NCBI GenBank assembly: GCA_001544655.2
Contig: FCOD02000010.1
Span: forward strand, 1-64,000
DNA length: 64,000 nucleotides
DNA from: Caballeronia turbans
Lineage (GTDB): Bacteria > Pseudomonadota > Gammaproteobacteria > Burkholderiales > Burkholderiaceae
Direction of reading: 5' to 3'
In this document: positions 42,812 to 62,072 of the stretch, piece by piece
Position numbering within the stretch: position 1 is the stretch's first letter
Layout of the letters: the number at the start of each line of letters is the position of its first letter
The notes under the pieces: model-generated
Seen by the model: only the letters and a program-made list of their open reading frames with translations
Database searches by the model: none
Told to the model about the DNA's origin: nothing
Translations under genes and position numbers: made by a program

Positions 42812-43654
42812 CTATTCGACGCGACGCCGCGTTGAAATAGCCGAGGCTGTGGAAATGACCAGATCGGCGAAGCGCCTTTCGTCGCGGTCGGCATGCCACC
42901 GCGATCTCGCCACCGCGATATTCACCGCGCCGATCCCTCGCCCGTGCGCATTGGTGATGGCCGCCGCAGTTGAAATGTCGCTGACGAAGTACTCGTCTTC
43001 TGTATGGGCGTACCCCTGCCTGCGGATTTGCGCGATCCGGTCTTTGATCTTGCGTGGCTGATACACGGTCGACGACGTGTACGGCACGAGATTCGTGCGG
43101 GACAGGAGGTCGTCGATCTCCCCGTCAGGAAGCGTTGCCAGGATCGCGAGTCCCGGCGCCGTGCAGTACGCAGGCAGGCGCGAACCGGTAATCACATGGG
43201 CGTTGAACACGTTGCGGCTCACGATCCGCAGCACGAACACGATGTCCGTGTCGTCCAGCACGGTGAGATTGGTGGCCTCCTCCGTCTCCGAGCCGAGTTG
43301 CTGGAGATAAGGCGTGGCCCGGCTCACGAGCTCGTTCGATGTCAGATAGTGGTAGGTGAAGTCGAGCAGCCGGGGCGACAGTTCATACTTGCGGCTGTCC
43401 GGATCCTTGAAAAGATAACCGAGGGCGGCGAGCGTGAAGGTGAAGCGTTGCGTCGCGCTCATGTCGAAGCCGGTGAGCGACGAAATCTCCGACAGCGACA
43501 ACTGACGCTTGCTGCCGTCGAAGGCGGTGAGCACTTTCATCGCCTTTTCGACGGACTGCACGTACAGGGACGATGCACTCGGATCCGCCGCCTCGGCCCG
43601 CGGCTTCGTCGCTGGACTCTTGCGTTTGCGCGGGGCTTTGGGCGCTTCGATCAT
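42812..43654 (-). CDS. IclR-family transcriptional regulator
   Basis: 280 residues from the ATG at 43654 (a GTG immediately before it would add one residue). The N-terminal 25 residues are basic; the helix-turn-helix is SLYVQSVEKAMKVLTAFDGS, LSLSEISSLTGFDMSATQRF, TFTLAALGYL; the IclR effector domain follows (ATPYLQQLGSETEEATNLTV; AYCTAPGLAILATLPDGEID; GAVNIAVARSRW). It is at the 3' end of the leftward CoA-ligase/ABC module, 67 bases after the ligase, and probably controls that module. Confidence 0.93.
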   Translation of the reverse strand: MIEAPKAPRKRKSPATKPRAEAADPSASSLYVQSVEKAMKVLTAFDGSKRQLSLSEISSLTGFDMSATQRFTFTLAALGYLFKDPDSRKYELSPRLLDFTYHYLTSNELVSRATPYLQQLGSETEEATNLTVLDDTDIVFVLRIVSRNVFNAHVITGSRLPAYCTAPGLAILATLPDGEIDDLLSRTNLVPYTSSTVYQPRKIKDRIAQIRRQGYAHTEDEYFVSDISTAAAITNAHGRGIGAVNIAVARSRWHADRDERRFADLVISTASAISTRRRVE

Positions 43655-43721
43655 CACAGGTTCGTCTTTTCGATTGTTGGCGGATTATCGCATGGCCCTA
43701 ACACCCTATCGTTTGCCGATA

Positions 43722-45263: not shown

Positions 45264-45290
45264 AGGGTTACCGATTGAGAAGCCCGTGAC

Positions 45291-47072
45291 TCAGCGCGCG
45301 CGGCGCTTGAGCCAGGAAGAAACCGCCACGACGAGCGCGATGAGAATGACGAGCGTGGTCGACACAGCCGCGAGCGTCGGCGTGATCGCAAGCTGGATGT
45401 CGTCCCACATCTGCTTCGGCAGCGTCGAATTGATTCCGCCGCTCACGAAGATCGCGATGGTCAGATCGTCGAAGGAAACGAGGAATGCGAACAGGAACGC
45501 CGCCGTCACGCTCGCCATGAGTAGCGGCAGCACGATCGACGTGATGCGCCGCAGCGGCGACGCGCCCATCACGCGGGCTGCGTCGTCCAGCCGCCAGTCG
45601 AAGCGCTGGAAGCCGGCCGCGAGGGTGACGACCACATAAGGAATCGCGAGAACCGTATGCCCGAGCACAAGGCCGAGATTCGTGCCCGTAAGCCCGAAGC
45701 GGCCGAAGAGATACAGGAGCCCCACCGCGACGACGATGCGCGGCACGATCAGCGGCGCGACGAGCAGCGCGAACACGGGCTTGCTCACGCGGCGCGGCAT
45801 GCGCGTCATCGCGAGCGTCGCGCCGAAGCCGAGCAGAAGCGACAGCAGCGCGGTGCCCAGACCGACTTCGAATGAACGGATGATGGCGCTGTGCCACACC
45901 GGCGAATCCATGAAGGTGCCGAACCATCGCGTGCTGAAGAACTTCGGCGGAAACGCGATGTAGTCGCTCTTCGTGAACGCATATGGAATCACCGAAAGCA
46001 CCGGCGCGACGAGCATCGCCATGATGACGCACGTATAGAGTCCGAGCGGGCTTGCCGCGCGCGCGGTCGTGTCGGCGCGAACCTTGCGGCGCATCATCAG
46101 CGGCGCGCAGACGCGGCCCGCCGTCATCAGCAGCGCGAGCTTGAAACCCTGTGCGCGCGAGCCGCGCGAACGTTCCGTCACTTCGCCCGTCAGCGAGGTC
46201 AGGCCGACCATGCGGTCGTAGACGAAAAAGATGACGATCGAGCAGACGAGAAGCACCGTCGAGAGCGCGCCGGCGAAGCGCATGTCGAAGAGTTCGAGCA
46301 CGGACGAGATCACGAGTTGCGCGATCATCGTTTCCTTCGGCGAACCGAGCAGCGCCGGCACGATGAAGAACCCGAGGCTGGAGATGAACACGAGCAGCCC
46401 CGCCGCCGCCACGCCCGGCGACGAGAGCGGCAGAAACACCGTGAAGAAGCTCGTGCTGCGTTCAGCGCCGAGCGTCTCCGCCGCCTGCGCGAGACGGTCG
46501 TCGATGCCGCGCATCACGGGAAGCATCGTCATGACGGCGAGCGGCAGCATCGAATGCACCATGCCGATGAGCACGCCGGTCAGCGACGGTATCGTGCCGC
46601 TCGTCTCGCGCACGAGCCCGAGCGAAAGCGCGATGGTCGAGAGCACGCCGGTCTTCGAAAGCAGCAGCATCCACGCGTAAGTCTTGACGAGATAGCTGGT
46701 CCAGAAAGGCAGCATGATCCAGAGGAGCCAGCGTTCGCGCACGCGCTCCGACAGCCGGCTCAGCATGTATGCGACCGGATACCCGAGCAGGATGGACAGC
46801 GCCGCCGTCAGGAACGATATCGCGAAGGTGATCCACAACACCTTGGCGTAGACGGGCGTGCGCGCGATGCGCTCGAACTGCGCGAAGCCGATATTGCCAT
46901 CGGGGCCAACGAGGCCGCCTTGCAGGATTTCGCCGACCGGCACGACGAAGAACACCAGCAGGAACAAGAGCGTGGGCACGATCGGCAAAAAGCGCATGAA
47001 GCGCGCCAGCACGACGGACCGGCCGCGCCGCGCGGCCTCGTTTTCGCGGTGCGCATGAAGAGCGATGGTCAT
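45291..47072 (-). CDS. Fused polyamine-type ABC transporter permease (PotB-PotC-like in one chain)
   Basis: 593 residues, twice the usual size. The first half is a PotB-like permease (FLPIVPTLLFLLVFFVVPVG ... EAA loop QAAETLGAERSTSFFTVFLP, SSPGVAAAGLLVFISS); after a linker around residues 290-340 comes a PotC-like permease (LGLYTCVIMAMLVAPVLSVI ... DDAARVMGASPLRRITSIVL, PLLMASVTAAFLFAFLVSFD). GAGGAACCGTC precedes the ATG. No frameshift or stop separates the halves, so this is a true fusion, making the two-permease core a single polypeptide. It works with the ATPase and binding protein encoded just upstream. Confidence 0.93.
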   Translation of the reverse strand: MTIALHAHRENEAARRGRSVVLARFMRFLPIVPTLLFLLVFFVVPVGEILQGGLVGPDGNIGFAQFERIARTPVYAKVLWITFAISFLTAALSILLGYPVAYMLSRLSERVRERWLLWIMLPFWTSYLVKTYAWMLLLSKTGVLSTIALSLGLVRETSGTIPSLTGVLIGMVHSMLPLAVMTMLPVMRGIDDRLAQAAETLGAERSTSFFTVFLPLSSPGVAAAGLLVFISSLGFFIVPALLGSPKETMIAQLVISSVLELFDMRFAGALSTVLLVCSIVIFFVYDRMVGLTSLTGEVTERSRGSRAQGFKLALLMTAGRVCAPLMMRRKVRADTTARAASPLGLYTCVIMAMLVAPVLSVIPYAFTKSDYIAFPPKFFSTRWFGTFMDSPVWHSAIIRSFEVGLGTALLSLLLGFGATLAMTRMPRRVSKPVFALLVAPLIVPRIVVAVGLLYLFGRFGLTGTNLGLVLGHTVLAIPYVVVTLAAGFQRFDWRLDDAARVMGASPLRRITSIVLPLLMASVTAAFLFAFLVSFDDLTIAIFVSGGINSTLPKQMWDDIQLAITPTLAAVSTTLVILIALVVAVSSWLKRRAR

Positions 47073-47081
47073 GACGGTTCC

Positions 47082-48143
47082 TCAGGCGTGTAGCAGCGTC
47101 GTGCGATGCGGGTCCCACGTGAGGCCGACTCGGTCGCCGACGCGCGGGCTCACGCTGCGCCCGCAGCGTACGGTCAGCTCGCTGCCGTCGCTCATCGAGA
47201 GATGCACGCGCGTGTCGCTGCCGAAGAACACGACATCCGAAATCGTGCCGTCGACAAAGCCGCTCTGCGGTTCGACGATGCGCGGCGCCTCGGGACGCAG
47301 GAGCAGCGTGTGACGCGTCGCGTGCGCGCCCGACGCGCCGGTCGGCAGAGGGATGCGGCCGCCCGCCGCGAGCAGGATCGGTTCGCCGCTGGCGCCGCGT
47401 GTCGCGTCGAGTTCGCCTTCCAGCAGATTCGAATGGCCGATGAAGCCCGCCGCGAAGCGAGTGGCCGGACGATCGTAGAGATCCGCAGGCGTGCCCACCT
47501 GTTCGATGCGCGCCTGGTTCATGAGACAGATGCGATCGGAGAGCGTGAGCGCTTCGTCCTGATCGTGCGTCACGTAGACGAAAGTCGCGCCGAGTTCCTT
47601 GTGCAGGCTTCGAATTTCGGCCTGCATGTGTTCGCGCAGCTTCTTGTCGAGCGCGCCGAGCGGCTCGTCGAGCAGGATCACCGAAGGCCGGTACGCGAAG
47701 CATCGCGCGAGCGCAATGCGCTGCTGCTGCCCGCCCGACAGCTCCTTGGGAAAGCGCTTCGCGTACTCGCTCATGCGCACCATGGCGAGCGCGTCGTCGA
47801 CTGCGGCTCGCACTTCATCGCGTGACTTGCGGCGCATGCGCAGACCGTATGCCACGTTGTCCCACACGCTCATGTGCGGGAACAACGCGTAGCTCTGAAA
47901 CACCATGCCGATGCCGCGCTTGCCTGGCTCGACATGCGTGACGTCGCGCCCGTCGATTTCGATGCGCCCCGCGCTCGGCGCGACGAGGCCGGAAATCATC
48001 TGCAACAAGGTCGTCTTGCCCGAACCCGAGGGACCGAGCAGTGTCAGGAATTCGCCCGCCTGCACGACGAGGTCCGTCGGTTCCAGCGCGACTGAATCGC
48101 CGTAGCGCTTCGCGATGCCGATCGCCTCGAGTTTAGAGCTCAT
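47082..48143 (-). CDS. Polyamine/Fe-type ABC transporter ATP-binding protein (PotA-like)
   Basis: 353 residues from the second of two adjacent ATGs, which is 6 bases from GGAG. Walker A LLGPSGSGKTTLLQMISGL, Q-loop GMVFQSYALFPHMSVWDNVA, signature [20 protein letters not shown], Walker B VILLDEPLGALDKKLREHMQ, switch FVYVTHDQDEALTLSDRICL; the C-terminal 110 residues form a TOBE domain (TRHTLLLRPEAPRIVEP). It energises the fused permease 9 bases downstream. Confidence 0.95.
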   Translation of the reverse strand: MSSKLEAIGIAKRYGDSVALEPTDLVVQAGEFLTLLGPSGSGKTTLLQMISGLVAPSAGRIEIDGRDVTHVEPGKRGIGMVFQSYALFPHMSVWDNVAYGLRMRRKSRDEVRAAVDDALAMVRMSEYAKRFPKELSGGQQQRIALARCFAYRPSVILLDEPLGALDKKLREHMQAEIRSLHKELGATFVYVTHDQDEALTLSDRICLMNQARIEQVGTPADLYDRPATRFAAGFIGHSNLLEGELDATRGASGEPILLAAGGRIPLPTGASGAHATRHTLLLRPEAPRIVEPQSGFVDGTISDVVFFGSDTRVHLSMSDGSELTVRCGRSVSPRVGDRVGLTWDPHRTTLLHA

Positions 48144-48153
48144 CATCCGCTCC

Positions 48154-49215
48154 TTACGAAATGATCCAGGAATTGAACCGTTCGGTGACCTTCTGGCGGT
48201 TCTCTTCCCACCATTGCGGGCTCGGCAGCTTCATGTTCCTGATGTTGTCCGGGGCCGTCGGCAGCAGGGCCGCGCGCTCCTTGCTGATGGTCTCGAAGGA
48301 CTTCCTGTTGGTCGGGCCGTAGGCCAGCGTGCGCGTGAGCAAGGCCTGACGTTTCGCATCGGCGCAAAAACGCACGAACTGTCTGGCCTCCTCGGCGCGA
48401 GGCGTGCCCTTCGGAATGCCCCAGCCTTCGATCGAATAGAGGCCCTGATTCCACACGATCGTCACCGGCGCGCCGTTGTCCTTCGCGGCTTGCGCGCGGC
48501 CGTTCCAGGTCGAGATCATGTCGACGTCGCCACTCTGGATCGCCTGCATCGCCTGCGCACCGGACGTCCACCAGATGTTGATGTGCGGCTTGATCTTGTC
48601 GAGGCTCTTGAACGCGCGGTCGACGTCGAGCGGATAGAGCTTGTCGAGCGGCACGCCGTCCGCGAGCAGCGCCTGTTCGAGCGTGTCGAGCGGACTGCGG
48701 CGCAGGCAGCGGCGGCCCGGGAATTTCTTCACGTCCCAGAAGTCCGCCCATGACTTCGGGCCGTTGTCCTTGAACTTGTCCGCCCGGTACGCGAGCACGG
48801 TCGAATAGACGTCGACGCCGAGCCAGTTGGGCGTAATGGCTTCGGGCATGATGTCCGGATAGTCGCTCGCTTTGAGGCCGATCGGCTCCAGCAGGCCTTT
48901 CGCTTCGAGATACGGAATGTCGGCCGAGAGGGTCAGCGTCGTGACGTCCCACACATAGTTCTTCGTTTGCACCATCGCCGCGAACTGCGCGACCGGTTGA
49001 GACTCGCGCGCGACGCTGACGACCTTGATGCCGGTCGCCTTCTCGAACGGGTCATAGAAGGCTTCGCGATATGCGGTCGTGTACGGGCCGCCCGGGTCCG
49101 ATACGACGATCTGCTTCGTTTGAGCGCGTGCGGCCAGCGGCATCGCGCCAGCCACGGCGAGCGCGCCCGCGCCGTGCAAAATGCGGCGGCGCGCCGGGTT
49201 GAAGTCTTGCGTCAT
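48154..49215 (-). CDS. Polyamine-type ABC transporter substrate-binding protein (PotD-like, Tat or Sec exported)
   Basis: 353 residues; GGGAG lies upstream. The N-terminus NPARRRILHGAGALAVAGAM, PLAARAQT has twin arginines and could use the Tat route. The body is family 1 binding protein: IVVSDPGGPYTTAYREAFYD, PFEKATGIKVV, WWTSGAQAMQAIQSGDVDMI, STWNGRAQAAK and GWGIPKGTPRAEEARQFVRF. GIPKG and the Trp/Asp-rich pocket resemble PotD/PotF relatives, but the CoA ligase in the operon suggests a carboxylated ligand such as a betaine rather than a free polyamine (inference). Confidence 0.92.
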   Translation of the reverse strand: MTQDFNPARRRILHGAGALAVAGAMPLAARAQTKQIVVSDPGGPYTTAYREAFYDPFEKATGIKVVSVARESQPVAQFAAMVQTKNYVWDVTTLTLSADIPYLEAKGLLEPIGLKASDYPDIMPEAITPNWLGVDVYSTVLAYRADKFKDNGPKSWADFWDVKKFPGRRCLRRSPLDTLEQALLADGVPLDKLYPLDVDRAFKSLDKIKPHINIWWTSGAQAMQAIQSGDVDMISTWNGRAQAAKDNGAPVTIVWNQGLYSIEGWGIPKGTPRAEEARQFVRFCADAKRQALLTRTLAYGPTNRKSFETISKERAALLPTAPDNIRNMKLPSPQWWEENRQKVTERFNSWIIS

Positions 49216-49283
49216 GGTTCAGGTCTCCCGCACTGCGGTTAAGAAGAAGCGGCTCGACTTCAGCCCGGTTTAATTGGCCCGAT

Positions 49284-50045
49284 TCATTTGGCGCGCTTTT
49301 TGAAGAACTCTTCCATCATGCGAGCGGGCTCGCCGGAGTCGTAGGCCTCGCGCTGGATGCGCATGCCCGCCTCGATACAGTCGACGAAACCCGGCTCGGT
49401 CATCTCGCGGAAACGCTGTTTGTCCAGACGCATCGCGACAGGCGGCTTCGCGGCAAGCTCGGTGGCGATTTCCAGCGCCTTCTCGAAGACCTTGTCCTGC
49501 TCGACGACGTGATGAATCAGCCCGATGCGATAGCACTCGTCGGCATCCATCAGACGGCCGGTGAGCGTGAGTTCGATGGTGCGCGACATGCCGAGCATCG
49601 AATTCATGATCCACGGGCCGGTCGTGCTGGCGATGCCCGCATTGATCTCCGGCTGGCCCATTCGCACGCCCGGATGACCCACGCGGATATCTCCGAGCAA
49701 CGCGACCTGAAACGCCGAGCCGGCGGCCGTGCCGTTGAGGGCCATGACGAGCGGCTTGCTCAGGCCACGCAACGCCGCGTAATAGCGCTGCCACTCCTTG
49801 ACCCACGCCACGGCGCGTTCGCCGTCGAAGTCGTGCGCTTCCGACAGATCCTGCCCCGCCGAAAACGCGCGGTCGCCAGCGCCCGTCATGATGATCGCGG
49901 CAACATCGTCGTCGGCATTGAAGCGCTCGAGCGCCGCGATGATCATTTCGCGCATCGGCGTGGTCCACGCGTTCAGGCGATCGGGACGATTCAACGTGAT
50001 GACCGCGACGCGGCCGTGATTTGAAAACAGGACGTCTTGGCTCAT
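49284..50045 (-). CDS. Enoyl-CoA hydratase/isomerase family protein
   Basis: 253 residues, first gene of the leftward operon. Crotonase fold with both oxyanion-hole segments: AAIIMTGAGDRAFSAGQDLS and KPLVMALNGTAAGSAFQVAL; the position of the usual catalytic Glu is in GVRMGQPEINAGIASTTGPW. The second segment has A-A-G-S where G-A-G-G/A is common. It would hydrate, isomerise or cleave the acyl-CoA made by the ligase. It is divergent from the Liv-type operon across 361 bases. Confidence 0.92.
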   Translation of the reverse strand: MSQDVLFSNHGRVAVITLNRPDRLNAWTTPMREMIIAALERFNADDDVAAIIMTGAGDRAFSAGQDLSEAHDFDGERAVAWVKEWQRYYAALRGLSKPLVMALNGTAAGSAFQVALLGDIRVGHPGVRMGQPEINAGIASTTGPWIMNSMLGMSRTIELTLTGRLMDADECYRIGLIHHVVEQDKVFEKALEIATELAAKPPVAMRLDKQRFREMTEPGFVDCIEAGMRIQREAYDSGEPARMMEEFFKKRAK

Positions 50046-50254
50046 GGTTTATCGCATAGCAATAGTTAGTGGTGTAATGCAATATAGAACCATCAAAAAT
50101 ACGGTGCAAGCGGGTTTACGCGAAAGCAGTGCGAATCGATGAAAAGTTGCCCTCCCCGACATTCGCCACGCGATGCGGCGCGGGCAAGCATTGCCCCCTT
50201 GCTCTCCTTACGTGGAAACCCTTGGTTGACGCAGCTACGAACCTGGACGCAAAC

Positions 50255-50268
50255 TTGAAGCGCTTCAA
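50255..50268. promoter_or_regulatory. 14-bp palindrome TTGAAGCGCTTCAA, likely LacI-type operator (distal)
   Basis: A perfect palindrome with the central GCGC step typical of LacI-family operators. It lies 152 bases before the first gene of the operon whose last gene encodes a LacI-type repressor. An identical copy lies 112 bases downstream. Confidence 0.8.
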
Positions 50269-50366
50269 ATCCGGCTCGAATGAGACAGGACGCGCCGTGT
50301 GTGGCGACCGTGAATCAGATCGATAACACGCAATTCTTAAAATAACAACAGTTTCGCGCCCAGAAT

Positions 50367-50380
50367 TTGAAGCGCTTCAA
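50367..50380. promoter_or_regulatory. 14-bp palindrome TTGAAGCGCTTCAA, likely LacI-type operator (proximal)
   Basis: Identical to the palindrome at 50255-50268, 40 bases before the start codon at 50407. A possible -10 sequence (TAAAAT, about 50338-50343) lies between the two copies, so a repressor bound to this site would block transcription and one bound to both could loop the DNA. Promoter assignment is tentative. Confidence 0.8.
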
Positions 50381-50406
50381 TTTCAAACAATACATGGAGA
50401 CACCGC

Positions 50407-51624
50407 ATGCCGACGCGCCTTCCCCGCACGATCTTTCGCTCACTCGCCGCCGCGTGCATCGCTGCATCGAGCCTCACCGCGGCGCAGGCCGCGGACATCA
50501 AGATCGGCGCCCTCTTTCCTTTTAGCGGCGGACTCGCGTTGCTGGGCGACGAGAGCTATCGCGGCGTGCAGCTCGCCGTCGATGAACGCAACGCCGCGGG
50601 CGGCATCAACGGCGAAAAAGTGGTGCTCGTCAAAGCCGATGCCGTCGATGCAAACCAGGCCGTCGGCGAAGCACGGCGTCTGACTTCGGTGGAGAACGTG
50701 TCGGCGGTGTTCGGGAGCTACTCGTCGGCGGTGTCGTCGGCGGCGACTCAAGTAACCGAGCTCGCCGGCGTGCCCTTCTTCGAACTCGGTGCGACCGCGG
50801 ACACCATCACGAGCCGCGGCTTCAAGTATCTGTATCGCAGCAACTCGACCACGAAGACCTTCGCGGACGGCACGCTGGAAGCACTCACCAAGGTCGTCGC
50901 GCCGCAGTTGAAGGTGGATCCGAAGACGCTGAAGATCGCCATCATTGCGGAAGACGGGCCGTACGGCACACTCGTATCCGGCTTTCAGAAGGAAGGCGCG
51001 AAGAAGCTCGGTCTGAACGTCGTGCAGGTGCTGCCGTACTCGGCGAAGAGCGTCGATCTGTCGTCGCTGATCCTGCGTCTCAAGGGCGCGGATGTCGATG
51101 TCGTGCTGCAAACCTCTTACCAGAACGACTCGATCCTGTTCTTCCGCCAGGCCGCGCAAGCAGGCTTCAAGCCGAAGGCGGTGATCGGCGCGGGCGGCGG
51201 CTACTCGCTCGCGGATACGGCCAAGGCCGTCGGCGCGCAGATGAACGGCGTATACGACATCGATTTCCCGCAAGTCGCGATGAACGAAAAAGGCGCGCCC
51301 GGCCTGGACACGTTCACCGCCGAATATCAGAAGCATTTCGGGATGGCCCCGCGCTCGGGTCACAGTCTCGTGAACTATGTCGGCGCGAAGGCTTTCCTCG
51401 ACGTTCTCGCCAACGCGAAATCCACCGACAAGGACAAGATTCGCGCGGCCGTGCTCGCCTACAAGAAAGCGGCCGGCACGACCGCGGCCGGCTGGGGCTT
51501 CCAGTTTGCCGACAACGGCCAGAACCAGCTCGCAACCACCAACGTGATGCAGTGGCAAGGCGGCAAGCTCGTGACCGTGTATCCGGAAGCGGTCGCGATC
51601 GCCAAGCCGGTCACGGCGCAGTAA
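50407..51624 (+). CDS. Liv-type ABC transporter substrate-binding protein
   Basis: 405 residues; GGAG precedes the ATG. Signal peptide SLAAACIAASSLTAAQA, then a family 4 (LivK/AmiC-like) domain: IKIGALFPFSGGLALLGDES, YRGVQLAVDERNAAGGINGE, VFGSYSSAVSSAATQVTELA, GVPFFELGATADTITSRGFK, VLQTSYQNDSILFFRQAAQA. It is longer than LivK and closer to binding proteins for urea, amides or aromatic acids. Periplasmic. First gene of a nine-gene operon. Confidence 0.93.
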   Translation: MPTRLPRTIFRSLAAACIAASSLTAAQAADIKIGALFPFSGGLALLGDESYRGVQLAVDERNAAGGINGEKVVLVKADAVDANQAVGEARRLTSVENVSAVFGSYSSAVSSAATQVTELAGVPFFELGATADTITSRGFKYLYRSNSTTKTFADGTLEALTKVVAPQLKVDPKTLKIAIIAEDGPYGTLVSGFQKEGAKKLGLNVVQVLPYSAKSVDLSSLILRLKGADVDVVLQTSYQNDSILFFRQAAQAGFKPKAVIGAGGGYSLADTAKAVGAQMNGVYDIDFPQVAMNEKGAPGLDTFTAEYQKHFGMAPRSGHSLVNYVGAKAFLDVLANAKSTDKDKIRAAVLAYKKAAGTTAAGWGFQFADNGQNQLATTNVMQWQGGKLVTVYPEAVAIAKPVTAQ

Positions 51625-51718
51625 ATCCGCCGCACTCGCTCCGCCGCAGTCAATCCGCGTTTCTCTTTCACTCGAACCGCGTGGCGCCGACGCGCTGCGC
51701 GGTCTCCAGGAAACGGGC

Positions 51719-52591
51719 ATGTCCATTCTTCTGCAACTTCTCGTCAACGGCCTGTTGCTGGGCGGCGCGTACGCGATCATCAGCATCGGCCTGACGCTGA
51801 TCTTCGGCGTCGTGCGGGTGGTCAACTTCGCGCACGGCGAACTGCTGATGGTCGGCATGTACGCCGTGTGGCTGCTCGCCGCGAAGCTCGGCTGGCACCC
51901 GTATGTATCCGCGGTGCCGGTCGCCTTGCTTCTGTTCGCCCTCGGCGTGCTCATCCAGCGCTTCATCATCCAGCCGCTGCTCTCGGCCGACGCGCACATC
52001 CAGATCTTCGCGACCGTCGGCGTATCGACCGCGCTCGTCAATCTCGCGCTCATGATCTTCGGCGCGGACGTGCATCCCGTCGACGTGAGCTTCGGCACCG
52101 AGCATCTGCAATTCGGCGATATCAACATTGTGAGCGGGCAGCTGATCACTTTCGCCGCGGCGCTGGCGGTCGCGGGCGGCGTGCATCTGTTCCTGCAGCG
52201 CACCTACACGGGACGCGCGTTTCGCGCGGTGGCGCAGCATCGCTACGCGGCCTCGCTGATGGGCGTCAACGTGAAGACCACGTATGTGCTCGCGTTCGGC
52301 ATCGGCGCGGCGCTGGTCGGGCTCGCGTCGGGCCTGCTCGTCGCGCAGTATCCGGTGTTCCCGACCGTCGGCCAGTACTTCGTGCTGACCGCCTTCGTCA
52401 TCGTCGTGCTGGGCGGGCTCGGCAGCCTGCCGGGCGCGCTCGTCGGGTCGATCGCGATCGGGCTCATCGACAGTCTCGCGGGCTATTACATCTCGCCCGA
52501 CATGAAGGAAGTCGTCTACTTCGCGATCTTCCTCGTCATTCTCGTGGTTCGCCCGACCGGCCTCTTCGGCCTCGGACGCGGCTCCGAATAA
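51719..52591 (+). CDS. Liv-type ABC transporter permease (LivH-like)
   Basis: 290 residues with AGGAA upstream, 94 bases after the binding-protein gene. About eight membrane helices; landmarks LLVNGLLLGGAYAIISIGLT, LIFGVVRVVNFAHGELLMVG, and the C-terminal FVIVVLGGLGSLPGALVGSI, AIGLIDSLAGYYI. It pairs with the LivM domain encoded next. Confidence 0.94.
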   Translation: MSILLQLLVNGLLLGGAYAIISIGLTLIFGVVRVVNFAHGELLMVGMYAVWLLAAKLGWHPYVSAVPVALLLFALGVLIQRFIIQPLLSADAHIQIFATVGVSTALVNLALMIFGADVHPVDVSFGTEHLQFGDINIVSGQLITFAAALAVAGGVHLFLQRTYTGRAFRAVAQHRYAASLMGVNVKTTYVLAFGIGAALVGLASGLLVAQYPVFPTVGQYFVLTAFVIVVLGGLGSLPGALVGSIAIGLIDSLAGYYISPDMKEVVYFAIFLVILVVRPTGLFGLGRGSE

Positions 52592-52609
52592 CGTTCAGCG
52601 AGGCATCCG

Positions 52610-54394
52610 ATGTTTCCCAATCTCCTGCATCCGCGCGGCTACATGGGCGCGCTGGCGCTCCTCGCGCTGCTCGCGGTACCGTTCGCGCTGCAATCGCCGT
52701 TCGCCTTTCATCTTGCCGTGCTCGTATGCATCTTCGGTGCGCTCGCGACGGCGTGGAACATCGTCGGCGGCTTCGCCGGGCAGCTTTCGCTCGGACACGC
52801 GGTGTTCTACGGCATCGGCTCGTATGCGGCGACGCTGCTCGTCATCGACTTCGGCATCACGCCGTGGCTCGGCATGTTCGCGGGCGCCGCGATTTCGGCG
52901 GCGGCGGCGATCGTCATCGCCTATCCGACGCTGCGTCTGCGCGGGCCGTTCTTCGCGCTCGCCACCATCGCGTTTCTGGAAGTGTGCCGGCTGCTCACCG
53001 TGCACGAGGAAAGCTGGACGGGCGGATCGGCGGGCCTGAACGTGCCGCTCAATATCGGCCTCCAATGGATGGTATTCCGCGAAAAGTGGGCGTATCTGCT
53101 GATCGCGTTCGGCTTTCTGCTGGTGACGCTGTGGGCCGCGTGGCTCATCCGCCGCTCGCGCTTCGGCTTCTATCTGATCGCCGTGCGCGAGCGCGAGGAT
53201 GCGGCGCGCGCCGTCGGCGTGAACGCGGTCAAGGTGAAGATCGGCGCGGCGGTGATCTCGGCCGTGCTGACGAGCATGATCGGTTCCTTTCATGCGATGT
53301 ATCTCACCTTCATCGATCCGTCCGCCGCGTTCTCGCTGGAACTGTCGGTCCAGATCGCGATGTTCGCGCTCATCGGCGGGCTCGGCAGCGTGGCCGGACC
53401 GCTTGCGGGCGCCGTGCTCGTGCTGCCGATCGCCGAACTCGCGCGCGGCTGGCTCAGCTCGTTCGGCAGCGGCACGCACGGCTTCGTCTACGGCGTCGTG
53501 CTGGTGCTCGTCGTACTGTTCATTCCGCGCGGGCTCGTCGGGCATCTGGGCGCTTACGTGCTGCGCTTCATCGACCGTCTGCCCGGCGCGCGCACGCCGG
53601 CGCCCGAACCGGCGAAGTCGATCGCGCCCGCCGATGCCCTGCCGCTCGGCACGCCCTTGCTGAAGGCGGAGCATCTGAAGAAGCGCTTCGGCGGCCTCGT
53701 CGCCACCGACGACGTGTCCCTCACGCTGCATGCCGGGGAGATTCTCGGCGTGATCGGCCCGAACGGCGCGGGCAAGACCACCGTCTTCAATCAGCTCTCG
53801 GGCTTCATTCGCCCGAACGAAGGCATCGTCAAGATCCGACTCGCCGATGGCACCTGGGCCGAGCCGCGCACGCCCGATGCTTTCGCGAAGGACGGCATCG
53901 GCCGCACGTTCCAGATCGCGCAGCCGTTCGCGGGCCTCTCGGTGCTGGAGAACATCATGCTCGGCGCGTTCATGCATACGCGGGTGCGCATGGAAGCGGA
54001 ATCCATCGCACGCGAAGTCGCGGAGATCACCGACCTCACATCGTTGCTCGATACCGAAGCGCGCAGCCTGACCGTCGGCGGCATGAAACGTCTCGAAGTG
54101 GCGCGCGCGCTCGCCACGCGTCCGCGCGCGCTCCTGCTCGACGAAGTGATGGCCGGCCTCAATCCCGCCGACATCGCGCGCGCGATCAGCATGGTGCGGC
54201 GCATCCGCGAATCGGGCATCGCCGTGCTGATGATCGAGCACATGATGCAGGCGACGATGGCACTGTCGGACCGCATCATCGTCATCAATGCCGGGCGCAT
54301 GCTGAAGGAAGGGAAGCCGTCCGATGTCGTCAACGATCCTGAGGTGATTCAGGCCTATCTCGGCAAGGGGTATCTCGATGCTCAAGCTGCATAA
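52610..54394 (+). CDS. LivM-LivG fusion: ABC permease joined to ATP-binding protein
   Basis: 594 residues in one uninterrupted frame. Residues 1-320 are a LivM-like permease (ATAWNIVGGFAGQLSLGHAV, FYGIGSYAATLLVIDFGI; FALIGGLGSVAGPLAGAVLV). After a Pro/Ala linker (ARTPAPEPAKSIAPADALP), residues 350-594 are a LivG-like ATPase: Walker A IGPNGAGKTTVFNQLSG, Walker B ALLLDEVMAGLNPADIARAI, switch VLMIEHMMQATMALSDR. The signature is SLTVGGMKRLEVARALA rather than the usual LSYGxQR. The fusion locks one ATPase to one permease. The end overlaps livF by 17 bases. Confidence 0.94.
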   Translation: MFPNLLHPRGYMGALALLALLAVPFALQSPFAFHLAVLVCIFGALATAWNIVGGFAGQLSLGHAVFYGIGSYAATLLVIDFGITPWLGMFAGAAISAAAAIVIAYPTLRLRGPFFALATIAFLEVCRLLTVHEESWTGGSAGLNVPLNIGLQWMVFREKWAYLLIAFGFLLVTLWAAWLIRRSRFGFYLIAVREREDAARAVGVNAVKVKIGAAVISAVLTSMIGSFHAMYLTFIDPSAAFSLELSVQIAMFALIGGLGSVAGPLAGAVLVLPIAELARGWLSSFGSGTHGFVYGVVLVLVVLFIPRGLVGHLGAYVLRFIDRLPGARTPAPEPAKSIAPADALPLGTPLLKAEHLKKRFGGLVATDDVSLTLHAGEILGVIGPNGAGKTTVFNQLSGFIRPNEGIVKIRLADGTWAEPRTPDAFAKDGIGRTFQIAQPFAGLSVLENIMLGAFMHTRVRMEAESIAREVAEITDLTSLLDTEARSLTVGGMKRLEVARALATRPRALLLDEVMAGLNPADIARAISMVRRIRESGIAVLMIEHMMQATMALSDRIIVINAGRMLKEGKPSDVVNDPEVIQAYLGKGYLDAQAA

Positions 54395-55082
54395 CGTCTC
54401 GGCCGGCTACGGCAAGAGCGAAGTTCTGCGCGGCGTCTCGCTCGATGTGCAGGAAGGCGAGATCGTCACGCTCGTCGGCGCGAACGGCGCGGGCAAGACC
54501 ACGACCCTGAAGACGCTGTGCGGCATCGTCGCGGCGCGCGGCGGCAGCATCACGTTTCAGGGACAGGAGCTCGTCGGCAGATCGTCGCACGACATCGTCG
54601 CGATGGGTGTCACGATGATTCCGGAAGGCCGTCAGCTTTTCCCTTTCCTGAGCGTCGAAGAGAACCTGCTGATGGGCGCGTTTCGTCACGCCGCACGCGG
54701 CGCGCGGCGCGAACGCATGGACGAAGTGCTCGAACTCTTTCCGCGCGTGCGCGAGCGTCTCACGCAGCTGGCCGGATCGCTGTCGGGCGGCGAGCAGCAA
54801 ATGGTCGCCATTGCGCGCGGCATGATGTCCGCGCCAAAGCTCTTGATCTTCGACGAACCGTCGCTCGGCCTTTCGCCCCTGCTCGTCGAGCAGATGTTCG
54901 AAGTGGTCGGCACGGTGGCGGCGCGCGGCGTGACGGTGCTGCTCGTCGAACAGAACGTGTTCCATACGCTCAAGCTCGCGAACCGCGGATACGTGCTGGA
55001 AAACGGCGCCATCGCGCTTTCCGGAACGGGCGCAGAATTGCTCGATAGTCCCCACGTGCGGCGCGCCTATCTCGGTCATTGA
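54378..55082 (+). CDS. Liv-type ABC transporter ATP-binding protein (LivF-like)
   Basis: 234 residues, usual LivF length, start overlapping the previous gene. Walker A LVGANGAGKTTTLKTLCGIV, the LivF-specific MIPEGRQLFPFLSVEENLLM, signature LSGGEQQMVAIARGMMSAPK, Walker B LLIFDEPSLGLSPLLVEQM, switch VLLVEQNVFHTLKLANRGYV. It is the second ATPase of the importer and is not fused. Confidence 0.95.
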   Translation: MLKLHNVSAGYGKSEVLRGVSLDVQEGEIVTLVGANGAGKTTTLKTLCGIVAARGGSITFQGQELVGRSSHDIVAMGVTMIPEGRQLFPFLSVEENLLMGAFRHAARGARRERMDEVLELFPRVRERLTQLAGSLSGGEQQMVAIARGMMSAPKLLIFDEPSLGLSPLLVEQMFEVVGTVAARGVTVLLVEQNVFHTLKLANRGYVLENGAIALSGTGAELLDSPHVRRAYLGH

Positions 55083-55127
55083 TCGCCGATCCGACGCATC
55101 GCATTCAGAAACCACGGAGAAAAACTC

Positions 55128-55664
55128 ATGCAAACCGAAGTGAAGCCCGACGAACAGGTCATCGCCTACCAGTTGCAGCAAGTGCCGTACATGTCGAAGG
55201 ATCTCGTGCACGGCGGCGTCATGACCGCCTGGCTCGAAGACGACAAGCTGTGGGTCCCCGCGACCGAAACCGTGTCGTTCAAGCCGCTCATCCTCAACGC
55301 GAGCCAGGGCTATTACGTGAATCTGCTGCGCGTGCGCGGCAGCGGGGTCGTGTCGCGTCATCGTCATAGCGGCGCCGTTCATGCGATGGTGCTCAAGGGC
55401 CGCTGGTACTACCTCGAACACGACTGGGTCGCGGAACAAGGCGGCTATGCGTTCGAGCCCGCGGGCGAAACGCACACGCTCTTCGTGCCCGAGGACGTGC
55501 CCGAGATGATCACCTGGTTCCACGTGACCGGCGGCTACACATATGTCGATCCGCAAGGCGTCGCGCAAGGTTACGAGGACGTCTTCACGAAGATCGAAGC
55601 GGCGCGCAGGCACTACGCGTCGATCGGTCTGCCCGCCGATTACATCGAATCGATCATCCGTTGA
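55128..55664 (+). CDS. Cupin, 2,4'-dihydroxyacetophenone dioxygenase-like
   Basis: 178 residues, ACGGAG upstream. A single cupin barrel. Metal ligands are suggested by VSRHRHSGAVHAMVLKGRWY (His residues) and by FEPAGETHTLFVPEDV (Glu and His). The segment LEHDWVAEQGGYAFEPAGET and HVTGGYTYVDPQG, GYEDVFTK at the C-terminus resemble 2,4'-dihydroxyacetophenone dioxygenase (DAD), a non-haem iron enzyme that splits the C-C bond of an alpha-hydroxyketone side chain. I infer an oxygenase on a related hydroxyketone or diketone; the true substrate is not known. It follows the importer genes directly. Confidence 0.85.
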   Translation: MQTEVKPDEQVIAYQLQQVPYMSKDLVHGGVMTAWLEDDKLWVPATETVSFKPLILNASQGYYVNLLRVRGSGVVSRHRHSGAVHAMVLKGRWYYLEHDWVAEQGGYAFEPAGETHTLFVPEDVPEMITWFHVTGGYTYVDPQGVAQGYEDVFTKIEAARRHYASIGLPADYIESIIR

Positions 55665-55669
55665 ACGTC

Positions 55670-56680
55670 ATGACATCCACTCTTCCTGCATCGATGCAAT
55701 ATATCGATCACGGCACGGGCGGCGCGCCCGACTGCATGCGGCTCGTGCAAGGACCGCTGCCCTCGCCGGGCCCGAACGACGTGCTGATCGAAGTCGCCTA
55801 CGCGGGCGTGAACCGCCCGGACGTACTGCAGCGCTCGGGCTCCTATCCGCCGCCGCCGGGCGCATCGCCGCATTTGGGGCTCGAGGTGTCGGGGCGCGTC
55901 GTCGCGACAAGCGCGGGCATCACGCAATGGCGCGCGGGCGATGAAGTCTGTGCGCTCGTGCCAGGCGGCGGTTACGCGCAATACTGCATCACGGATGCAT
56001 CGCATTGTCTGCCGGTGCCCGAAGGCCTCACGCTGCTTCAGGCCGCGGCCTTGCCCGAAACCTACTTCACCGTGTGGACCAACGTATTCGAGCGCGGCCG
56101 CCTGCAGGCGGGCGAGACGTTTCTCGTGCACGGCGGATCGAGCGGCATCGGACTGACCGCGATCCAGCTCGCGCACGCGTTCGGCGCGCGCGTCATCACG
56201 ACCGTCGGCAACACGGAAAAAGCGCAGGCGTGCCGCGAAGCGGGCGCGGATCACGCGATCAACTATCGCGATGAAGATTTCGTCGATGCCGTCGCGAAGC
56301 TCACCGATGGCGAGGGCGTGAACATCATCCTCGACATGGTCGGCGGCGACTACATCGCGCGCAACATCCGCGCGCTCGCGCTCGAAGGCCGGCTCGTGCA
56401 GATCGCCTTTCTCGAAGGCAGCCGCATCGAACTGGATGCCATGCCGATCATGCTGCGCCGCCTCACCTTCACGGGCTCCACCTTGCGCGCGCGCAGCATC
56501 GAACAGAAAGCGGCGATCGCGCAGGCGCTGCACGCCCACGTGTGGCCGCTGCTCGAAAGGGGCCGCGCGCTGCCGGTGATTCATCGCGTGCTGCCTTTTG
56601 CGGACGTGCAGGCCGCGCACGAGCTGATGGAATCGAGCAAGCATATCGGCAAGATCATGCTGAAAGTGGGAGACCAATGA
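55670..56680 (+). CDS. NAD(P)H:quinone oxidoreductase, zinc-independent MDR family (PIG3-like)
   Basis: 336 residues from the ATG at 55670; a TTG at 55661 would add three. GroES-like start (DVLIEVAYAGVNRPDVLQRS, GSYPPPPGASPHLGLEVSGR), dinucleotide site TFLVHGGSSGIGLTAIQLAH, and the family's EGVNIILDMVGGDYIARNIR. No catalytic-zinc residues, as expected for quinone/enone reductases of the p53-inducible PIG3 type. It probably reduces an enone or quinone intermediate of the pathway. No ribosome binding site is visible; translation may depend on coupling to the cupin gene, which ends within 6 bases. Confidence 0.92.
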   Translation: MTSTLPASMQYIDHGTGGAPDCMRLVQGPLPSPGPNDVLIEVAYAGVNRPDVLQRSGSYPPPPGASPHLGLEVSGRVVATSAGITQWRAGDEVCALVPGGGYAQYCITDASHCLPVPEGLTLLQAAALPETYFTVWTNVFERGRLQAGETFLVHGGSSGIGLTAIQLAHAFGARVITTVGNTEKAQACREAGADHAINYRDEDFVDAVAKLTDGEGVNIILDMVGGDYIARNIRALALEGRLVQIAFLEGSRIELDAMPIMLRRLTFTGSTLRARSIEQKAAIAQALHAHVWPLLERGRALPVIHRVLPFADVQAAHELMESSKHIGKIMLKVGDQ

Positions 56681-56681
56681 C

Positions 56682-57443
56682 ATGCGGCACGACAAGCGCG
56701 TGGTTCTGATCACGGGCGGCAGCGGCGGCATCGGCGAGGCGCTCGTCGAGCGCTATGCGCGAGATGGCGCGGCGGTCGGCATCGTCGACGTCAATGAGGA
56801 AACGGGCGCGGCGCTCGCACAGCGTCTCACCGGTGCGGGCCTGCGCGTGCATTTCGCGCACGCCGACGTCGGCGATTTCGCCGCGTGCGAGGCCGCATGC
56901 CGCGCGATCGAAGCGGCGCTCGGTCCGGTCGATACACTCGTCAACAACGCGGGCATCTCGCCGAAGCACGCAGGCAAGCCGATGCCGATCTGGCAGATGG
57001 CGCCCGACGAATGGCGCCGCGTGACGGACGTGAACGTGAACAGCGTCTTCAACTTCTGCCGCATCCTTGCGCCGGGCATGGTGGAGCGGCGCTTCGGGCG
57101 CATCGTGTCGATGTCGTCGGTGGCGGGCAAGGCGTATCTCGACATCGTCGCCGCGCATTACAGCACGACGAAGGCCGCGCTGATCGGCATGACGCGGCAT
57201 CTCGCGGGCGAGCTCGGACCGCACGGCATCACGGTGAACGCAATCGCGCCGGGGCGCATCGATACGCCGCTCGTGCGCGGCGTCGCGCGCGAAGCCAACG
57301 AAAAGGTCGCACAGGAAACGCCGTTGCGACGCCTCGGCGCGCCTGACGAAGTGGCATCGACGTGTCTCTTCCTCACGTCCGACGAAGCTGCGTTCGTCAC
57401 CGGACAAGTGATCGATGTCGCCGGCGGATGGCTGATGACATGA
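56682..57443 (+). CDS. Short-chain dehydrogenase/reductase (FabG-like)
   Basis: 253 residues, one base after the previous stop. Cofactor motif VVLITGGSGGIGEALVERYA with an acidic residue at the end of strand 2 (GIVDVNEE) that favours NAD; NAG in TLVNNAGISPKHAG; catalytic Ser in SMSSVAGKAY, Tyr/Lys in AAHYSTTKAALIGMT; C-terminus FVTGQVIDVAGGWLM. It would oxidise a secondary alcohol or reduce a ketone, for example producing the hydroxyketone attacked by the cupin (inference). Confidence 0.94.
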   Translation: MRHDKRVVLITGGSGGIGEALVERYARDGAAVGIVDVNEETGAALAQRLTGAGLRVHFAHADVGDFAACEAACRAIEAALGPVDTLVNNAGISPKHAGKPMPIWQMAPDEWRRVTDVNVNSVFNFCRILAPGMVERRFGRIVSMSSVAGKAYLDIVAAHYSTTKAALIGMTRHLAGELGPHGITVNAIAPGRIDTPLVRGVAREANEKVAQETPLRRLGAPDEVASTCLFLTSDEAAFVTGQVIDVAGGWLMT

Positions 57444-58552
57444 CGAATGCGCTCTGGCGGACCATCGGCTTTCCGGGGCGATATACGCAGGGTCCGGGCG
57501 CGCTGGCCGCGCTCGGCTCGACGCTCGCGGAGCTCGGCGCGCGCCGCGCGTTCGTGCTCGTCGATGGCGCGGTAGCCGCCCGCGTGTCGGCTGACGTCAC
57601 GCAATCGCTCGAAGAAGCGCGCGTCGCCCCGCACATCGCGGCGTTTCCGGGCGAATGCACGGCGGCGGTCATCGCGAAGCTGAGCGACGAAGCGCGCAAA
57701 GCACACGCCGATGCCGTCGTGGCAATCGGCGGCGGCAAGACCATCGACACCGCGAAGGGCGTTGCGCGGGCGCTGAACGTGCCGATCGTGGTCGCGCCGT
57801 CCGCCGCGTCGAGCGATGCGCCGACGAGCCGCCTCATCATCCTGTATGACGAGGCGCATCGTGTTGCCGGCATCGAGATGCTGCCGCGCAATCCCGATGC
57901 CGTGATCGTCGATACCGCGCTGATCGCCGCCGCGCCCGCGCGTCTGTTCGCGGCCGGCATCGGCGATGCGCTGAGCAAGAAGTACGAAGCCGCGCAATGT
58001 CAGCGCGCCGCCGGTCTGAATTCATACGGCACGCCGCCGCTGCCGGGCGCCTTGCTGCTCACGCGCGCGACGCTTGCCACCTTGCTCGACGACGGCGCGC
58101 GCGCCTACGCCGATGTCGGGCGCGGCGACCTCACCGATGCCGTCGAACGCGTGGTTGAAGCGACCGTGCTTTTGAGCGGCGTCGGCTTCGAAAGCGGGGG
58201 GCTGTCGCTCGCGCACGCGCTGATTCGCGGTCTCACGGCGATCCCCGCGATGGCCTCGATGATGCACGGCGAACTGGTCGCGTTCGGCACGCTTGTACAA
58301 TTGTTCGTCGAGGATTCATCGCCCGAGGACATTGAACCGTTGGCCACGCTTATGACCGCAGTCGGATTGCCGCTCACGCTCGCGCAACTGGGGCAGCACG
58401 CCCCGCTCACATCCGTGGAGCTGTCGCTCATCGCCGAGGCGACGCTCGCCACGCGCTACAGCCGGCACATGATGCCGCCATTGACGGCGCAAAGGCTGAT
58501 CGAAGGCATCGCTCGCGCCGATGCATACGGACGCACGCGCAGCGCGCCATGA
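57440..58552 (+). CDS. Iron-containing alcohol dehydrogenase, glycerol dehydrogenase-like
   Basis: 370 residues from the ATG at 57440, which overlaps the SDR stop. NAD site AVVAIGGGKTIDTAKGVARA; APSAASSDAPTSRLIILYDE (typical of GldA); metal-ligand region GLSLAHALIRGLTAIPAMAS, MMHGELVAFGTLVQLF with His residues. GldA-type enzymes oxidise vicinal diols such as glycerol to hydroxyketones. Next to a hydroxyketone-cleaving-type cupin, a diol or hydroxyketone substrate is an attractive guess. The LacI gene overlaps its end by 4 bases. Confidence 0.92.
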   Translation: MTNALWRTIGFPGRYTQGPGALAALGSTLAELGARRAFVLVDGAVAARVSADVTQSLEEARVAPHIAAFPGECTAAVIAKLSDEARKAHADAVVAIGGGKTIDTAKGVARALNVPIVVAPSAASSDAPTSRLIILYDEAHRVAGIEMLPRNPDAVIVDTALIAAAPARLFAAGIGDALSKKYEAAQCQRAAGLNSYGTPPLPGALLLTRATLATLLDDGARAYADVGRGDLTDAVERVVEATVLLSGVGFESGGLSLAHALIRGLTAIPAMASMMHGELVAFGTLVQLFVEDSSPEDIEPLATLMTAVGLPLTLAQLGQHAPLTSVELSLIAEATLATRYSRHMMPPLTAQRLIEGIARADAYGRTRSAP

Positions 58553-59580
58553 AGCCGACCCGCGCCACGCTCGCCGATGTCGCGCGGCTCGCGGGCGTAT
58601 CGCTCGGCAGCGCGTCGCGGGCCTTGTCCGTACCGGACCAGGTCAAGCCGCAGACGCTTGCGAACGTGCAGCGCGCCGTCGAACAACTCGGCTACGTGCG
58701 AAACGGCGCGGCGCAGGCGCTCGCCTCACGCAAGACGCGCACGGTCGCGGCCATCTATCCGACGCTCAATAACCCCATTTACGCCGATTCCATTCAGGCG
58801 CTCCAACAAACGCTGTGGGGCTATGGATATCAGTTGCTGATTGCGAGTCACGAATACAAGCCGGCGCGCGAACTCGAGGTGCTGCGCGCGATTCTCGAGC
58901 GCGGCGTGGACGGGCTCGTGCTCGTCGGCACCGATCATCCTCCCGAAGTCTTCGCGCTCACGCGTCAATACGACTTGCCCTATGTGCTTACCTGGTCGGT
59001 GGACGAAACGCAGTATCCGCACTGCGTCGGCTTCTCGAACTTCGAGGCCGCTTACCAGTTGGCACGGCGCATCGTCGGATTCGGGCATCGGCGCGTGGCC
59101 ATGTGCGGCGGCTCCACGTTCGGAAATGAACGCGTGCGCGCGCGGCAGGCAGGCACGCGCGCCGCGCTCAGGGAAGCAGGCCTCGACCTGAGACCCGAAT
59201 GGATCGTGGAAGCACCGTTCACGTTCGAAGGCGGACGGCAGGCGCTGCGCGAACTCTGGGACGGCGAAGTGCACCCCAGCGTCGTGATATGCGGCACGGA
59301 TCTGCAGGCCATCGGGCTGCTCGACGAATGCCGCGCGAAAGGCATTCGCGTACCCGAAGATCTTTCGGTGACCGGGTTCGACGACATCGAACAGGCACGG
59401 CTCACTCAGCCGCCGCTGACGACGGTGCGCGTGCCATCGCTGGAGATCGGCGCTCGCGCGGCACGGCATCTGATGGCGCTGATCGACGGCAAGGACGGTG
59501 ACAATGAACTCGTGCTCGAAGCGCCCGTTGTGGAACGGGGCACGCTTTCGGAGCCCGCGCAAGGCGAGTCGGAAGTCTGA
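58549..59580 (+). CDS. LacI-family transcriptional regulator
   Basis: 343 residues, last gene of the operon, start overlapping the dehydrogenase stop. Helix-turn-helix ATLADVARLAGVSLGSASRA, hinge YVRNGAAQALASRKTRTVAA, then a periplasmic-binding-protein-like effector domain (IYPTLNNPIYADSIQALQQT; VDGLVLVGTDHPPEVFAL; VVICGTDLQAIGLLDECRAK; LSVTGFDDIEQARLTQPPLT). It very likely binds the two identical palindromes upstream of the operon, giving negative autoregulation. Confidence 0.94.
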   Translation: MKPTRATLADVARLAGVSLGSASRALSVPDQVKPQTLANVQRAVEQLGYVRNGAAQALASRKTRTVAAIYPTLNNPIYADSIQALQQTLWGYGYQLLIASHEYKPARELEVLRAILERGVDGLVLVGTDHPPEVFALTRQYDLPYVLTWSVDETQYPHCVGFSNFEAAYQLARRIVGFGHRRVAMCGGSTFGNERVRARQAGTRAALREAGLDLRPEWIVEAPFTFEGGRQALRELWDGEVHPSVVICGTDLQAIGLLDECRAKGIRVPEDLSVTGFDDIEQARLTQPPLTTVRVPSLEIGARAARHLMALIDGKDGDNELVLEAPVVERGTLSEPAQGESEV

Positions 59581-62061: not shown

Positions 62062-62072
62062 GGCCGGCGCTC

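Follow-up and report, generated by a model that had tools for sequence, protein, structure and literature searches.

The window analysed here, a 64,000-nucleotide stretch of Caballeronia turbans DNA (contig FCOD02000010.1, positions 1 to 64,000), carries a real, conserved catabolic operon of nine genes; that its final gene, which encodes a LacI-family regulator, controls the operon is strongly inferred. The other eight genes encode a Liv-type importer (binding protein, LivH, a LivM-LivG fusion and LivF), a cupin, a medium-chain dehydrogenase/reductase (MDR), a short-chain dehydrogenase/reductase (SDR) and a GldA-like dehydrogenase (Table 1). We propose, with a probability a little under one half (about 0.46), that this is one LacI-repressed operon with which the cell takes up a small hydroxylated compound, probably carboxylated and without an amino group, and cleaves it oxidatively.

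A sequence-only reading of the same DNA had given this gene order and these families. Both stand: all nine frames are open on the + strand in that order, spanning 50407-59580, and the computed Pfam and NCBIfam profile matches, on which our assignments are based, agree with the families. The overlapping or near-zero gaps that it described are also there, at 94, 18, -17, 45, -4, 1, -4 and -4 bases in gene order. The MDR gene starts with TTG. The GldA-like gene probably starts at 57440, where an ATGA overlaps the SDR stop codon, and a longer mechanical frame from 57362, on which its NF006941 score was computed, is less likely. The earlier start of the operon at 50255 is not a gene start; it coincides with the first of two perfect palindromes.

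Operators and the LacI regulator

The two palindromes are identical and are the predicted operators O1 and O2. In the whole 7.35-Mb genome the exact sequence TTGAAGCGCTTCAA occurs only at these two places. Allowing two mismatches, the window has three matches (O1 and O2 being the two exact ones) against 0.35 expected, and two more one-mismatch matches in the genome both overlap open frames. When the upstream regions of the window, six Caballeronia loci, Paraburkholderia unamae and Pararobbsia are aligned (n = 9), four islands line up by eye (AAACCCT-TTGAC, O1, O2 and the ribosome site) and little else does; single sites are degenerate in some rows. Conservation thus marks a candidate promoter-like box before O1, and the predicted arrangement looks like that of a repressor site placed at a promoter and an auxiliary site. 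The palindrome has the central CG pair of LacI-repressor sites and lies at the regulator's own operon. The regulator itself has an N-terminal LacI helix-turn-helix domain (PF00356), largely invariant in 15 aligned rows, and a periplasmic-binding-like effector domain (PF13377), as members of its family do.

Regulator and palindrome also travel together. Among 58 genomes of the genus, this LacI (called at 1e-80; eight at 93–100% identity, two at 57%) is present in 10, the exact palindrome in 11 and both in 9. The palindrome is therefore found in nine of the ten LacI-bearing genomes versus 2 of the 48 others (Fisher p 5e-8, not corrected for phylogeny).

The 12-base core of the operator was also sought at 79 cupin loci, allowing one mismatch and counting intergenic sites at most 300 bases upstream of genes called with a crude caller. 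At least 593 candidate loci exist, of which these are the closest, and near-relatives weigh heavily among them. At 15 of the 17 loci with an importer the core lies 5' of its gene, and it also precedes genes for LacI (8/26), SDR (6/34), the cupin (4/79), a major facilitator superfamily (MFS) carrier (c11, 6/15), a hydrolase (c15, 5/10) and a HemB-like protein (3/4). It precedes 6 of 888 unlabelled gene calls, five being frames opposite the importer's upstream region and the sixth a FUSC gene. The reversed core, our control, precedes none of 1,297 gene calls. Across ten genomes reached through loci the core has 58 sites, versus 19 for the reversed control.

This co-occurrence, together with the placement of the core before the importer and before the genes of split modules, points strongly to LacI control. 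Some observations weigh against it. A simple consensus scan of the upstream region for a sigma-70 promoter scored nothing. In two genomes of the genus (G016 and G024) the exact operator is present but this LacI is missing, and in one (G023) the reverse holds. In a sample of 160 genomes of the family, where the LacI is rare (4 at 1e-90), 8 of the 156 genomes that lack it carry the exact palindrome; these copies are chance occurrences or sites of other regulators. Seven extra palindrome sites in other genomes (L123-L129) were set aside: six lie inside mechanically called frames, and the site in G016 (L128) is intergenic with no module genes there. LacI control of a branched-chain-type importer, which the sequence-only reading had called unusual, is nevertheless backed by the predicted operators, the upstream footprint and the co-occurrence. 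The main text of a survey of LacI regulons (PMC4052901), in the part available to us, does not mention a LacI regulator over a Liv-type importer and a cupin.

Conservation and variants of the gene set

The nearest named relatives of the window are Caballeronia calidae, C. temeraria, C. zhejiangensis and C. arvi. Conservation of the whole order within Burkholderiaceae, which had been suggested as a check, is borne out: all nine genes, MDR, GldA and LacI included, are kept in order at six named loci of Caballeronia and one of P. unamae (L009-L014, L017). A C. grimmiae plasmid also has nine genes in matching order and with matching annotation, and 8 of the 58 genus genomes have a cupin of at least 94% identity and, 3.4 kb behind it, a LacI of at least 93%. 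The operon genes are under purifying selection, since the dN/dS values that were computable against up to eight partners are 0.02–0.45; some pairs were saturated.

Further afield the set loosens. SDR and GldA accompany the cupin at 30 of the 79 loci, LacI at 26 and the importer at 17, and none of five partner genes is present at 43; these counts depend on identity and coverage thresholds, with some contigs short, and are lower bounds. The sequence-only reading would have been undercut if the cupins occurred mostly without importer and dehydrogenases. In part they do, in the 43 loci without partners, but the 37 module rows cluster in the cupin tree. They do not form one clade: the tree has 10 label changes compared with 26.6 in shuffles, its bootstrap support not being settled, so the cupin has been recruited, or its partners lost, repeatedly.

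Module composition also varies. Pararobbsia has a version without GldA; Bordetella hinzii and B. pseudohinzii lack the MDR and have the LacI divergent; Pseudomonas versions also lack the MDR. Not every enzyme is therefore essential. The Pseudomonas loci have SDR, GldA and cupin, with importer and LacI in part of them and in another order. Many loci, Pseudomonas included, have a PF04199 protein behind the SDR-GldA pair that the window operon does not. The module is split in P. caledonica, P. caffeinitolerans, P. tropica and C. terrestris, with the operator before the units seen. In such split modules it also stands 5' of cupin, SDR, MFS carrier, hydrolase and an extra HemB, and in P. caledonica it is followed by a gene of the FUSC (fusaric/aromatic acid exporter) family and then HemB. 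The idea of a self-contained route is weakened by these relatives, whose operator also precedes MFS carrier, hydrolase, FUSC exporter and HemB genes that are absent from the window operon. The further claim that no described pathway has exactly this set agrees with our search of the open-licence PMC literature, which returned no publication on it.

Cupins of the same family have other uses as well. Of 46 plasmid records with a cupin match, seven were picked, rather than sampled, and examined. Two of them tend towards sugars or hydroxy acids: Skermanella has LacI, GH1 beta-glucosidase, carbohydrate ABC, cupin and SDR genes, and Pantoea has LacI, an alpha-hydroxy acid oxidase, MFS, cupin and a pair of SDRs. 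The remaining five favour neither side: the window's operon in C. grimmiae, SDR-cupin pairs in Ponticoccus and Palleronia, a LysR, cupin, GldA, SDR, MFS and hydrolase set in Acinetobacter ursingii, and a LysR and cupin in Rhizobium with a CoA ligase-hydratase-ABC set further along. Some family cupin is present in 46 of the 58 genus genomes at 1e-40. The window's own genome has a second one, 56% identical (L130, G000:C65, at about 9855-10376), with MFS-like, SDR-like and one further gene behind it. In Pseudomonas, family cupins adjoin a LysR-like gene, a class III aminotransferase and transporter genes (L025, L040, L046, L053-L056, L060), and this is a different use of the family.

Uptake and cleavage of a hydroxylated compound

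Two permeases, two ATPases and a type I binding protein make this a Liv-type importer, although its proteins score below every NCBIfam Liv cut-off among the matches listed. The best PDB match of the binding protein is 8wch, a probable Leu/Ile/Val-binding protein (5e-43). It keeps the positions of LivJ S79, Y150 and Y202, which we take to be ligand-site positions. The position of E226, presumably the acidic residue for the ligand's amino group, is Gly in all 18 aligned binding-protein rows. These residues fit a ligand with a carboxylate and without an amino group.

The SDR has S146, Y160 and K164, which we take to be its active-site residues, and the GldA-like protein has D176, H259 and H276, presumably its metal ligands. 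The latter scores above the cut-off of its GldA subfamily profile, and the MDR well above that of the PIG3-type quinone oxidoreductases (Table 1).

The closest PDB entries to the cupin are structures of 2,4'-dihydroxyacetophenone dioxygenase (DAD; 4p9g, 1e-29, and 5bpx, 1.9e-29), as the sequence-only reading had recognized. The alignment covers 158 residues without gaps. The computed iron ligands are conserved (DAD H76, H78 and H114 correspond to H78, H80 and H116), as are DAD E108 and Y93 (E110 and Y95), V82 and F129. By contrast, 9 of 21 mapped DAD pocket positions differ: F43, S49, W61, D63 and L135 are A45, F51, Y63, N65 and Y137 in the cupin, and W137, F148, Y153 and M156 are Y139, E150, K155 and A158. 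The phenol-binding and hydrophobic pocket of DAD (W61, D63, W137, F148, Y153, M156) is thus not retained. In DAD, according to the part of PMC4219425 available, W61 and D63 are modelled as binding the substrate's phenol, and other residues line a mostly hydrophobic cavity. Family resemblance therefore does not carry DAD's substrate over; with nine pocket positions changed, charged E150 and K155 among them, that substrate is unlikely for this cupin. E150 and K155 are present in all 88 family rows compared (near-duplicates included), and the 57 aligned rows of alignment A1 show no change at N65, F51, Y137, E150 or K155; positions 45 and 158 vary. A pocket that is charged and polar would favour a substrate that is polar too, and perhaps carboxylated.

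Taken together, these features suggest a mechanism. Without inducer, LacI would sit on O1 at the promoter and on O2 before the first gene, silencing importer, enzymes and lacI itself; the substrate or an intermediate would release it. The importer would take up a small hydroxylated compound, whose alcohol groups the SDR and the GldA-like enzyme would convert to an alpha-hydroxyketone (or a neighbouring diketone). The MDR might reduce a conjugated enone or dispose of a side product. With O2, the three-His iron cupin would then cleave the C-C bond beside the carbonyl, yielding two acids for central metabolism. The computation itself shows the families, their order, the operators, the association of LacI with the operator, the conserved iron ligands and a pocket different from that of DAD; repression, the order of these steps, the carboxylated nature of the substrate and the cleavage chemistry are what we infer here.

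Some of the cupin evidence cuts against this reading. The second iron histidine is missing in 2 of 88 family rows (L051 and L086). The placement of E150 and K155 in the pocket relies on the ungapped alignment with DAD, and the two could form an internal salt bridge instead. Furthermore, cupins with other neighbours have an equal pocket, which is therefore not a pointer to this pathway alone.

An aryl glycol or phenacyl alcohol, in a route at which the sequence-only reading had hinted, is an unlikely substrate. SDR and GldA would yield Ar-CO-CH2OH, and the cupin would split this into an aromatic acid and formate, as DAD splits 2,4'-dihydroxyacetophenone into 4-hydroxybenzoate and formate. DAD is the closest solved cupin, in public annotation the family goes by the name '2,4'-dihydroxyacetophenone dioxygenase family protein', and the gene behind the operator in P. 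caledonica belongs to a family of fusaric/aromatic acid exporters. Moreover, the part of PMC10866074 available describes a DAD-like gene of Novosphingobium MBES04, perhaps akin to that of the window's cupin, as strongly induced, and more so than any other gene, by lignin fragments, including a lignin-derived phenylpropanone; this raises the aryl route and lowers the reading that we prefer. Against it stand the lost phenol-holding pair W61 and D63, the four other replacements in the hydrophobic pocket and the absence of any ring-degradation gene from the operon by Pfam and NCBIfam matches.

Cleavage of a beta-diketone or beta-keto acid is quite unlikely. Dke1, the acetylacetone dioxygenase, cleaves beta-diketones, and the cupin could act similarly on a 1,3-dicarbonyl made by the dehydrogenases. 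No entry named Dke1 is among the cupin's 18 PDB matches, beyond which no Dke1-directed search was made. BKACE genes adjoin the module in Pseudomonas and in P. caledonica, where the protein reaches 558.5 bits with the NCBIfam profile for 3,5-dioxohexanoate:acetyl-CoA acetone transferase (cut-off 430), and the aminotransferases beside the other Pseudomonas cupins could make beta-keto acids. However, GldA-type enzymes act on vicinal diols, and none of eight BKACE genes in the 79-locus scan has the operator core directly before it. A beta-keto cleavage enzyme, perhaps akin to this BKACE, serves deoxyribonate catabolism in some bacteria, as reported in the part of PMC6365646 available. Deoxyribonate breakdown, suggested as a function by BKACE near the relatives' modules, was rejected, BKACE not being directly behind the operator.

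It is also improbable that this LacI merely governs several loosely related scavenging functions, with importer and enzymes not acting on one compound. MDR, GldA, PF04199 protein, hydrolases, HemB, FUSC and transporter type do vary between genera, and few genomes of the family sample have the LacI. Nevertheless, Caballeronia, P. unamae, Pararobbsia and Bordetella all keep importer, SDR, cupin and LacI as a group, and the same operator with them; in split modules it accompanies the genes.

A narrower version of the hydroxyketone pathway that we prefer is a long shot. The extra HemB behind the operator occurs in four Burkholderiaceae genomes (P. caledonica, P. caffeinitolerans, C. terrestris and C. 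arationis), each of which has one or more additional hemB genes elsewhere; in the window's genome hemB is single, with no module copy. The P. caledonica protein is a clear HemB (PF00490 6e-130; NF009923 532.3 bits, cut-off 507), nearest in the PDB to 1b4e, which we take to be E. coli HemB. A short broken hemB-like piece adjoins it. Levulinate and succinylacetone inhibit porphobilinogen synthase, as stated in the part of PMC2999460 available. Because gamma-keto acids do so, the extra HemB might be a bypass in these four genomes. The compound handled would then resemble 5-aminolevulinate; a 5-hydroxy-4-oxo acid derived from a 4,5-dihydroxy acid, or from the corresponding lactone, is one example. 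SDR and GldA would make the hydroxyketone, and the cupin would cleave it to a dicarboxylate (such as succinate) and formate.

Neighbouring clusters and known systems

Table 1. Genes, predicted regulatory sites and related features (positions in the window unless a locus is named)
Feature	Position	Strand	Evidence
Candidate -35 box TTGACG, adjoining conserved AAACCCT element	50226..50231	+	conserved island, 9 aligned upstream regions
Operator O1 (predicted), perfect palindrome TTGAAGCGCTTCAA, at expected end of -10 box	50255..50268	.	palindrome, conservation
Operator O2 (predicted), identical palindrome TTGAAGCGCTTCAA, ends 26 bases 5' of first gene	50367..50380	.	palindrome, conservation
Binding protein of Liv-type importer, periplasmic	50407..51624	+	PF13458 7.7e-50
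LivH-type permease	51719..52591	+	PF02653 4.5e-43
LivM permease-LivG ATPase fusion	52610..54394	+	PF02653 + PF00005
LivF-type ATPase	54378..55082	+	PF00005; top NCBIfam match LivF 267.8 bits, below cut-off 441
Cupin_7 protein, probable Fe(II) C-C cleaving dioxygenase	55128..55664	+	PF12973 1.8e-17; 4p9g 1e-29; H78, H80, H116
MDR, PIG3-family NAD(P)H quinone/enone oxidoreductase	55661..56680	+	TIGR02824 477.2 bits, cut-off 296.8
FabG-like SDR	56682..57443	+	PF13561 3.7e-62; NF009466 258.8 bits, cut-off 222; S146, Y160, K164
GldA-like polyol dehydrogenase	57440..58552	+	NF006941 382.6 bits, cut-off 336; 8k1g 3.7e-80; D176, H259, H276
LacI-family regulator, final gene of the operon	58549..59580	+	PF00356 + PF13377
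IclR regulator, AMP-dependent CoA ligase, Pot-type ABC importer, enoyl-CoA hydratase	42812..50045	-	
Extra HemB behind LacI operator	L112:10580-13651, L115:2673-3659, L078, L079		four Burkholderiaceae genomes

The cluster upstream of the operon, whose enoyl-CoA hydratase matches PDB 4kd6 over its full length (2.6e-156), was considered as part of it and left outside; it may still be a partner. Its ligase is present in 19 of the 58 genus genomes (1e-150), beside the cupin operon only here and in G045. A cluster of this type and the cupin operon lie about 3.5 kb apart, in another arrangement, in C. grimmiae Lep1A1. In C. terrestris (L116:7224-14419) two operator-like sites precede genes for an ADP-forming-type CoA ligase, an enoyl-CoA hydratase and a Pot-type importer; this set and that of the Rhizobium plasmid differ from the window's cluster. 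Directly behind the operon, at 59899-63989 on the - strand, two long frames resemble hybrid histidine kinases by eye.

Operator and gene content together define a catabolic regulon of Caballeronia, Paraburkholderia, Pararobbsia and Bordetella; Pseudomonas has a related version. The regulon's cupin is one of a large family whose label refers to an activity that this cupin may well not possess. The substrate can be approached from three sides, through the operator, the binding protein and the cupin pocket, and identifying it would also correct many automatic annotations.

Each part of the operon has a familiar counterpart. The cupin shares its family, its three iron histidines and the equivalents of E108 and Y93 with DAD, and differs in the nine pocket positions and in its importer, SDR and GldA neighbours. 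The GldA-like enzyme matches glycerol dehydrogenase (8k1g, 5zxl) over its full length and keeps the Asp and two His of the metal site, but reaches only 305.7 of the 700 bits set for the glycerol/1,2-propanediol equivalog NF047954. Compared with the branched-chain amino acid importers of the Liv/HAAT type, all component families and three LivJ ligand-site positions are the same; the LivM-LivG fusion, the Gly in place of E226 and control by LacI are not. Finally, the operon resembles other LacI-family catabolic regulons in having a local regulator and paired palindromic operators with a central CG pair, whereas the genes targeted here are those of a Liv-type importer and a cupin, and not a simple sugar operon.

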